The position numbers and the translations under genes are program-made. From Spartobacteria bacterium AMD-G4 (GTDB lineage: Bacteria; Verrucomicrobiota; Verrucomicrobiia; Chthoniobacterales; Terrimicrobiaceae), in contig NEUK01000064.1 of assembly GCA_002290555.1 (NCBI GenBank), positions 1 through 52,808 of the forward strand: DNA of 52,808 bases. Direction: 5' to 3'. A model generated the notes under the pieces. That model was not told where the DNA came from. It saw nothing but the letters and a program-made list of their open reading frames with translations, and made no database searches. The stretch's first letter is position 1, and each line of letters starts with the position of its first letter. This document shows positions 33,215-36,948 of the stretch, piece by piece.

Positions 33215-34102
33215 TCAGGCTTCTGGAGTCAGGATGCGCTCCAACTCGGCCATGCGGCTTTGGATTTTTGCGCGTTCCTCGCGGTGTTCGTCCATTTCCA
33301 TAGGGGGAAACATGCTTTCGGCGTAGTAGGGGAGGTGGCCAGAGGTTTTATACATTTTCTCCTTGGCGAGGTGGGGGCTGCGGACGCGCACATACCCGGC
33401 GGCGAATTCGGCTTCTTTCGCGAGTTTTTCCAGTTCCTCGACCAGCACGGTGCCCTTCGGTAGCCAGAGAGGCATGCCTGGTCCGACGTATTCGGAGTCG
33501 ATCGCGTAGAGTCCCATCTCGGCGCCGATCTTGCGGTGGTCGCGCTTTTTGGCTTCCTCGAGCATGGTGAAATACTCCTCCATGGCGGTCTTGTTTTTAA
33601 ATGCTGTGCCGTAGATGCGCTGGAGTTGGGGATTCCGCTCGTCGCCTTTGTAGTAGGCGCTGGCGACATGCGTGAGCTTGAACGCGCCGATATTGCCGGT
33701 GCGCATGACATGCGGTCCTGCGCAGAGGTCGGTGAACTCGCCGTTGCGATAGAGGGTGATCGTTTCGTCTTCGGGGATGTTTTGAACGATATCGAGTTTG
33801 AATTTGGATGCCACGCCGCGCGGGGCGAGGGCTGCGAGTTCGCCACGCTCGGCCATGGCGAGGGCGTCTGGGCGGGAAATCTCGACGCGTTCGAAGACAT
33901 GGTTGGCCTTGATCTCGCGTTTCATCTCCTCCTCGATGCGGGCGAAATCCTCTGGCGAAATGCGGTGGGGGAGTTCGAGATCGTAGTAAAATCCATTCTC
34001 AACCGGTGGACCTGCCGCAAATTGGGCCTCTGGCCAGATTTTTGAGATGGCCGTGGCAAGCACGTGGGCGGCGGAGTGGCGGATGCGTTCGAGTTCAGTC
34101 AT
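33215..34102 (-). CDS. Truncated threonyl-tRNA synthetase-like protein: editing domain plus start of catalytic core
   Basis: 295 residues; full ThrRS is about 640. It begins directly with the N2 editing domain (RHSAAHVLATAISKIWPEA) and contains the zinc/editing residues HxxxH and DLCAGPHVMRTGNIGAFKL with SAYYKGDERNPQLQRIYGTAF. It continues into the catalytic core with KKRDHRKIGAEMGLY, GPGMPLWLPKG and class II motif 1 (RVRSPHLAKEKMYKTSGHLP), then stops about six residues after PPMEMDE with an unrelated helical tail (HREERAKIQSRMAEL...). The N-terminal TGS domain, motifs 2 and 3 and the anticodon domain are absent, so it cannot aminoacylate alone. It may hydrolyse Ser-tRNAThr in trans, or be a relic. 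The coding frame is clean and codon use looks normal. Confidence 0.85.
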   Translation of the reverse strand: MTELERIRHSAAHVLATAISKIWPEAQFAAGPPVENGFYYDLELPHRISPEDFARIEEEMKREIKANHVFERVEISRPDALAMAERGELAALAPRGVASKFKLDIVQNIPEDETITLYRNGEFTDLCAGPHVMRTGNIGAFKLTHVASAYYKGDERNPQLQRIYGTAFKNKTAMEEYFTMLEEAKKRDHRKIGAEMGLYAIDSEYVGPGMPLWLPKGTVLVEELEKLAKEAEFAAGYVRVRSPHLAKEKMYKTSGHLPYYAESMFPPMEMDEHREERAKIQSRMAELERILTPEA

Positions 34103-35808: not shown

Positions 35809-36948
35809 TTGCAGAGATGCCCGCTGTGCGGCAACTATCTTTACCATTACATGATCCCGACCGAGCACCACGATCCCGTCAACGCCCGTATCCTTGCCGT
35901 TTCCGAAGACAAGATTTCCGGTTTTCCCCGCGAACCTTTTCAGGAAATTTCCCGACTGAGCGGTGTCGAGTTGCCCGTTGTTTTGGAGCGTATCCGCGCC
36001 ATGGTCGAAGCGGGAACGATCCGCCGTGTCCGCCAGACGCTTCTCGCCACGAATCTCGCCGAGGGCGCTCTCGTGGCTTGGAAAGTGCCCGCCGAAAAGC
36101 TCGAAGCCGCCTTTGAGTTCATGTTCCGCGAGGATCCCTTCTCTGGGCATGTCGTCATCCGCTCGACGGATGCTAAAATCCCCGGCGAGGCTTACAAACT
36201 CTGGACAACCCTGAAAGTGCCCGCCGGCCAGTCGCTCGATGAGCATTGCCGTCTTCTCATGACTCTCACCGGAGCGGAGGCCTACCGGCTCATGCCTGCC
36301 AAGGGCATCTTTGCCCTTGGTGTTGGCCACGTGCGCCGCAAGAGCATCGAACCCGGCGACAAATCCGAAGGGCTTGCCCGCATGCTCAAAACAGGTGTCG
36401 TGCATCTCACCGACCACGAATGGCGCGTTCTCATGACCCTCAAACGCGAATTCGCACCCGAGGAAATCCGTGAGCCCGCATGGGTCTCCCGCGCCGAAGA
36501 GGCCGGGGTGACCCTTGAGGATTTCCATGCCGTGGCCGAATCCCTCCAAGAACGCAAGCTGCTCGGTCGTTTTTCCACCTTCCTGGAACATGTCAAACCC
36601 TCTCAAACCGGTGTGCGTGTGACCCGTTTCAACGCTCTCTTTCATTGGGCCGTTCCCGTGGGACGCGAAGAAGAGGTCGGCGCACAGATCGGCCGCCACG
36701 AGTGTCTCACGCATTGCTACTGGCGTGAAGGCGGTCCCGAGTTCAACAACGTAAACATCATGGCTGTCTCCCACGGCACGGAGAAGGATCGTGTCATGCA
36801 ATTCAAGGCCGCCATCGACGCCCACCTTGTCGAAGCCGGTATCCCCGTCTCTTACACCAATGTCTTCTGGGGCGGGCGCAGTGAAATCAAACCCTCCGAA
36901 ATCTCACCATTCGCTTACAAGGATTGGCATGAAAAACACCGCGCCTGA
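35809..36948 (+). CDS. Tandem Lrp/AsnC-like protein, probable siroheme decarboxylase (AhbA-AhbB / NirD-NirL) fusion
   Basis: 379 residues from a TTG start. A short Cys-rich N-terminus (CPLCGNY) precedes two AsnC-like modules. The first (about 45-175) has a winged-helix part EISRLSGVELPVVLERIRAM followed by IRRVRQTLLATNL. The second (about 200-375) has HEWRVLMTLKREFAPEEI and LLGRFSTFLEH, then HECLTHCYWREGGPEFNNVN, which resembles the HCYxR active-site region of AhbB/NirL. The family decarboxylates siroheme in the alternative heme or heme d1 pathways. AhbA and AhbB are usually separate or simply fused; the N-terminal CxxC is unusual. A role as DNA-binding regulator cannot be excluded. The start is uncertain because no ATG precedes it; the first in-frame ATG is at residue 15. 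Confidence 0.7.
   Translation: MQRCPLCGNYLYHYMIPTEHHDPVNARILAVSEDKISGFPREPFQEISRLSGVELPVVLERIRAMVEAGTIRRVRQTLLATNLAEGALVAWKVPAEKLEAAFEFMFREDPFSGHVVIRSTDAKIPGEAYKLWTTLKVPAGQSLDEHCRLLMTLTGAEAYRLMPAKGIFALGVGHVRRKSIEPGDKSEGLARMLKTGVVHLTDHEWRVLMTLKREFAPEEIREPAWVSRAEEAGVTLEDFHAVAESLQERKLLGRFSTFLEHVKPSQTGVRVTRFNALFHWAVPVGREEEVGAQIGRHECLTHCYWREGGPEFNNVNIMAVSHGTEKDRVMQFKAAIDAHLVEAGIPVSYTNVFWGGRSEIKPSEISPFAYKDWHEKHRA

Follow-up and report, generated by a model that had tools for sequence, protein, structure and literature searches.

An open frame of 379 codons occupies positions 35809-36948 (+ strand) of the window, by which we mean the whole stretch of 52,808 nt that was analyzed. A casual annotation would label this gene an AsnC regulator. 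The initial annotation, which gave the extent of the frame correctly, read it as a fused siroheme decarboxylase of the AhbA/AhbB type with a Cys-rich N-terminus, and left its gene context unexplained. The locus raises the question of what this protein does, and in which pathway.

The N-terminus was settled by comparing orthologs from relatives. The upstream-most start of the frame is a TTG at 35809, a mechanical ORF start, while the conserved start of the protein is the ATG at 35851, with the motif MIPxEHxDPxN. Downstream of this ATG conservation is strong, with a mean column identity of 72-73% in the ortholog alignment. The 14 codons above it read LQRCPLCGNYLYHY in the window and LQRVRACGNHPRLP, LQRCLLWDNDPPLP, LQRHAVCGNHPRFP and LQRGCQCLNNLCLP in siblings with 90-94% protein identity, and in the same-genus relative L007 a stop codon lies six codons before the equivalent ATG. 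Because the upstream stretch diverges in the siblings and is interrupted in L007, the CPLCGN motif that had been placed in the first ten residues is no feature of the protein, and the metal or Fe-S site suggested for it is ruled out as a start-codon artefact, the TTG having been misread as the start.

Table 1. Features of the gene and its predicted product, with positions in the window
Feature	Position	Strand	Basis
Coding sequence of a one-chain siroheme decarboxylase-like protein, 365 aa	35851..36948	+	Conserved start and sequence in relatives; NirDL fold
In-frame stretch above the true start, reading CPLCGN; outside the protein	35809..35850	+	Unconserved in siblings; stop codon in L007
N-terminal AhbA-like module, residues 9-155, HTH and ferredoxin-like domain	35875..36315	+	AhbA profile, 52 bits; secondary structure of the model
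H100-V-V-I-R104, corresponding to the AhbA iron ligand His115 and to Arg119	36148..36162	+	Aligned with 4ch7 and 4czd_A; all 33 sequences share H100 and R104
C-terminal AhbB-like module, residues 188-345, HTH and ferredoxin-like domain	36412..36885	+	AhbB profile, 78 bits; secondary structure of the model
H288-C-Y290-W-R292, counterpart of AhbB His98, Tyr100 and Arg102 (catalysis)	36712..36726	+	Alignment to 4ch7 and 4czd_B; invariant in 33 sequences

Two AsnC_trans_reg2 stretches were detected by Pfam in the single chain, with weak HTH scores. The NCBIfam models AhbA (NF040708) and AhbB (NF040707) matched the N and C halves at 52 and 78 bits, below their curated cut-offs of 140 and 125, although single-subunit models can give low scores on a fused chain. 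Since both scores are below the cut-offs, the protein is treated as a variant with no assigned equivalog. A sequence search of the PDB returned Hydrogenobacter NirDL first (2e-19, colinear), followed by Desulfovibrio AhbA and AhbB. The AlphaFold model built from 33 orthologs (pLDDT 85.5, pTM 0.79) displayed two HTH plus ferredoxin-like modules in one chain, in agreement with the two AsnC-like modules described by the initial annotation, and matched NirDL with a Z of 25.9 over 300 residues. Judged from sequence and predicted structure, the gene is one encoding a one-chain protein of the siroheme decarboxylase family. The original family call was right, and the reading as a siroheme decarboxylase is supported by profile, predicted fold, active-site residues and genome distribution.

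The active site was compared with the Desulfovibrio enzyme, in which, according to Palmer et al., AhbA His115 ligates the iron, Arg119 of the same subunit holds a propionate, and His98, Tyr100 and Arg102 of AhbB take part in catalysis, the R102A variant being inactive (PMC4145669). All five role-assigned positions have counterparts here (H100, R104, H288, Y290 and R292), and all are invariant in the 33 orthologs. In the alignment, the iron-ligand and catalytic histidines of AhbA/AhbB correspond to H100 and H288. The HCYWRE block pointed out earlier is present, and the HxYxR within it is invariant. The HxYxR of the N half is not kept; it reads HVVIR, with an invariant V102 in place of the Tyr. 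The His of the RxHD segment found in NirDL and AhbA is also replaced in this half, with an insertion of about seven residues beside it. This difference in the N-half motif could affect substrate choice, and it provides the main sequence argument for a variant.

The neighbors in the window are a MoeZ/MoeB-type adenylyltransferase-rhodanese (- strand) and an aldo/keto reductase (+ strand), as initially described, and neither is a heme gene. No conserved gene neighborhood was found among the 20 loci compared. It is preceded by nuoEF-like genes in G010, by gltA in Xiphinematobacter and by glnB in three other genomes, and adjoins trpD in two genomes, these neighbors being named by eye from sequence. 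The adenylyltransferase and aldo/keto reductase are, as far as can be seen, bystanders. The heme-free context is therefore explained by the lack of any conserved neighborhood, the partners of the gene appearing by co-occurrence across genomes and not by adjacency. A search for carriage of the gene on plasmids gave no match. The threonyl-tRNA synthetase near the gene (33215-34102, - strand) has only 295 aa and is without the catalytic C-terminal half; it aligns with positions 4-295 of the Xiphinematobacter enzyme, which has 619 aa. It is cut at the identical place in three sibling genomes (L084, L085, L086/L080), and L090 encodes a full-length enzyme at the same locus.

The gene was detected in 43 of the 58 relatives, nearly always as a single copy; Chthoniobacter flavus has an ortholog (L146). 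The 80 related contigs were nearly all labelled Verrucomicrobia, mostly Chthoniobacterales/Spartobacteria, with a few carrying the label Akkermansiaceae or Haloferula. In a sample of 241 Verrucomicrobiota genomes, 39 strong matches were found, all within the window's class, and outside it three genomes gave weak partial matches only. In one class member the gene is represented by two adjacent matches with overlapping ends (G273:C1:1693179-1694271), and three members of the same genus (G062, G123, G159) gave much lower scores, an indication that the gene may be decaying or evolving fast in part of this genus. We found no literature linking siroheme decarboxylase to Verrucomicrobia or Chthoniobacter.

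The presence of the gene was compared with that of heme genes, in counts that rest on draft assemblies and in statistics that ignore phylogeny. HemQ was detected in 41 of the 58 relatives. In the window's order HemQ accompanies the gene: among the 46 relatives that are at least 90% complete, it was present in 31 of 34 genomes with the gene and in one of 12 without it. The three near-complete genomes with the gene and without HemQ include two (G023, G054) that have a pair of AhbC/AhbD-like proteins instead. HemE (over cut-off) and the ferrochelatase HemH were found in exactly the same nine of the 58 relatives. Three of these carry the gene, and the same three carry HemQ, both routes being present. 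Among the genomes listed for the window's class, 38 have the gene only, 39 have HemE only, one has both and one has neither, a near-exclusion with a Fisher value of 3e-20 when ancestry is ignored. Genomes with the gene come from several families, and so do those with HemE.

A heme-copper oxidase was found in 55 of the 58 relatives, SUMT in 56, a double CbiX-type chelatase in 57 and sulfite/nitrite reductase domains in 49. The initial annotation had held that a genome devoid of siroheme or heme-branch genes would speak against its reading; such genes exist in the relatives. SUMT, CbiX and HemQ were not seen in the window's own assembly, which is 82% complete. Six near-complete relatives (G004, G006, G041, G046, G048, G056) have neither the gene nor HemE/HemH, and all of them encode COX1; five, the exception being G046, are also without HemQ. 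These six may depend on heme uptake or on yet another route.

In the search for ahbC, ahbD, nirJ and hemH that had been proposed, AhbC/AhbD-like pairs were found, besides the nine hemH relatives, in 10 of the 58, none of them in the window's genus or Xiphinematobacter, but no protein exceeded the AhbC or AhbD cut-off in any relative, so that a complete Ahb pathway was not found. In the ten relatives the pair consists of adjacent radical SAM/SPASM genes (L033:1465-3671; L031; the L036-L040 region). One member belongs to family TIGR04053 and is AhbD-like (319 bits), and the other is NirJ1/AhbC-like (495 and 466 bits against cut-offs of 650). G024 and G025, which are without the decarboxylase, have the NirJ1/AhbC-like kind only. 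No clear Met8/CysG-N precorrin-2 dehydrogenase was found in the 58 relatives, PF13241 giving weak matches only. Several of these matches adjoin SUMT and are of glutamyl-tRNA reductase size; they were read by eye as HemA and rejected as the siroheme step.

The genome of Candidatus Xiphinematobacter, a nematode endosymbiont (G031; 915,884 bases in one contig), is informative. Its authors reported hemE, hemD, hemY and hemH as missing and guessed at diverged analogs; hemD, hemY and hemH were missing also from Chthoniobacter flavus (PMC4607532). We found that Xiphinematobacter carries the gene, HemQ, HemW, a CbiX protein and a SUMT-HemD fusion, HemD being present after all in this form. It also encodes COX1 (aa3-type oxidase), COX3, cytochrome b, cytochrome c, Rieske, ResB and a cytochrome c assembly protein. 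Profile searches gave no match to HemE, HemH, AhbC/AhbD or NIR_SIR (sulfite reductase). As no other siroheme user is in sight, retention of the siroheme branch is consistent with a function in heme synthesis. Together with HemQ, the gene offers a concrete and testable proposal for how this endosymbiont manages without HemE and HemH. A motif search for its radical SAM proteins returned HemW, the others being by eye of the MqnC, MqnE, LipA, MiaB and KamA types. Subtracting the HemE-bearing genome G003, of which about a third was covered, gave no candidate for the AhbC step. A nitroreductase-family protein in Xiphinematobacter is a candidate lead for this enzyme, and the 817 proteins of the genome narrow the search.

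The probable explanation, and the best one for these observations, is that the gene encodes a single-chain siroheme decarboxylase in a siroheme-to-heme route that ends in HemQ and replaces HemE and HemH. It draws on the family, fold, conserved residues, co-occurrence with HemQ and near-exclusion of HemE, from which we infer the reaction, the sequence of steps and the existence of further enzymes for the AhbC step and precorrin-2 oxidation. In the proposed route, uroporphyrinogen III would be converted by SUMT and the CbiX-type chelatase to siroheme. The AhbA-like and AhbB-like halves of the decarboxylase would come together as a single barrel around siroheme. Within it the N half would provide the iron ligand (H100) and the propionate contact (R104), and H288, Y290 and R292 of the C half would decarboxylate the C12 and C18 acetates. 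The conversion of siroheme to 12,18-didecarboxysiroheme, most likely the committed step of this siroheme-dependent route, would lead towards coproheme, and HemQ would finish heme b in most genomes. Two steps are left without enzymes, because AhbC/AhbD-like proteins are missing in most genomes with the gene and no clear Met8 was seen. The radical SAM pair may serve in the genomes that have it; in those that show neither such a pair nor Met8, further enzymes would carry out the two reactions. Also weighing against this explanation are the profile scores under the cut-offs, the altered N half, the six near-complete relatives that have neither the gene nor HemE/HemH, the three genomes with both routes, and the window's own assembly, in which SUMT, CbiX and HemQ were not seen.

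The distribution of the gene suggests siroheme as the source of heme in many Verrucomicrobia, a nematode endosymbiont among them, for want of the usual heme genes. Whether the whole lineage derives its heme in this manner, with the fused decarboxylase acting early, HemQ acting last and no radical SAM AhbC/AhbD, is evenly balanced in our judgment. If so, the two acetates that are left would be taken off by a further enzyme, or else uroheme would be the substrate of the decarboxylase. The lineage would then use a further arrangement of heme synthesis, shared by the endosymbiont, and the AhbC step would be the defined gap in it.

The strongest competing explanation has the decarboxylase act on Fe-uroporphyrin III (uroheme), removing all four acetates to give coproheme for HemQ, so that SUMT and AhbC would be unneeded. 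This would account for the absence of AhbC- or AhbD-like proteins from most genomes with the gene and for an N-half motif unlike that of AhbA, and an analogue of iron-uroporphyrin III is bound in the NirDL crystal structure, so the pocket of this family accepts it. An AhbC-like protein is nevertheless present in some genomes with the gene, and a SUMT domain with a full score (284 bits) is retained in Xiphinematobacter, where no NIR_SIR protein was found, a point that is not conclusive since the domain is fused to HemD. We consider action on uroheme unlikely, and siroheme the probable substrate.

Considerably less probable is a DNA-binding AsnC/Lrp regulator, perhaps sensing heme or siroheme, that merely tracks the pathway. 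The AsnC/Lrp-type HTH and ferredoxin-like modules of both halves would suit such a protein, but the profiles that would place it among DNA-binding AsnC regulators all scored under their cut-offs (HTH_AsnC-type 13 bits against 27, HTH_24 16.7 against 21.9, LrpA 11.4 against 250). The model matched AsnC/Lrp regulators with a Z of at most 9.9 over about 147 residues, far below the match to NirDL. The invariance of the catalytic residues and the retention of the gene by an endosymbiont that has lost most regulation (PMC4607532) also argue against a regulator. A step of heme d1 synthesis, as catalyzed by NirDL/NirGH in denitrifiers, is very improbable even with NirDL as the closest solved structure, for the gene occurs almost universally in the order and persists in the endosymbiont, and no NirJ-like radical SAM protein was found in the window's genus. 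There the related AhbD model, a NirJ proxy that scores 180-204 bits on NirJ1/AhbC-type proteins, gave partial matches of no more than about 54 bits.

Among known systems, NirDL of Hydrogenobacter thermophilus (PDB 4ch7, 4czc) is likewise one chain with two HTH plus ferredoxin-like modules, colinear over its full length, at 23-25% identity. The protein differs from it in the N half, where HxYxR has become HVVIR and the RxHD His is lost ahead of the insertion of about seven residues, and at the C-terminus, which carries its own invariant block TNVFWGGRSEIKPSEIS. The two halves match, one each, the subunits of AhbA/AhbB from Desulfovibrio desulfuricans (PDB 4czd, 4un1), with the iron-ligand His, the propionate Arg and the AhbB catalytic triad in common. 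These subunits are encoded by two genes in D. desulfuricans and form one chain here, and the AhbC and AhbD of that system are absent from most genomes here. Haloferax has no uroD, cgoX or cpfC, and has siroheme decarboxylase genes alongside a HemQ/ChdC, the latter serving aerobic heme synthesis (PMC5746218). It has ahbC and ahbD, whereas most Verrucomicrobia genomes here show neither. Haloferax (ChdC/PitA; PMC5746218) provides a precedent for combining siroheme decarboxylases with ChdC.
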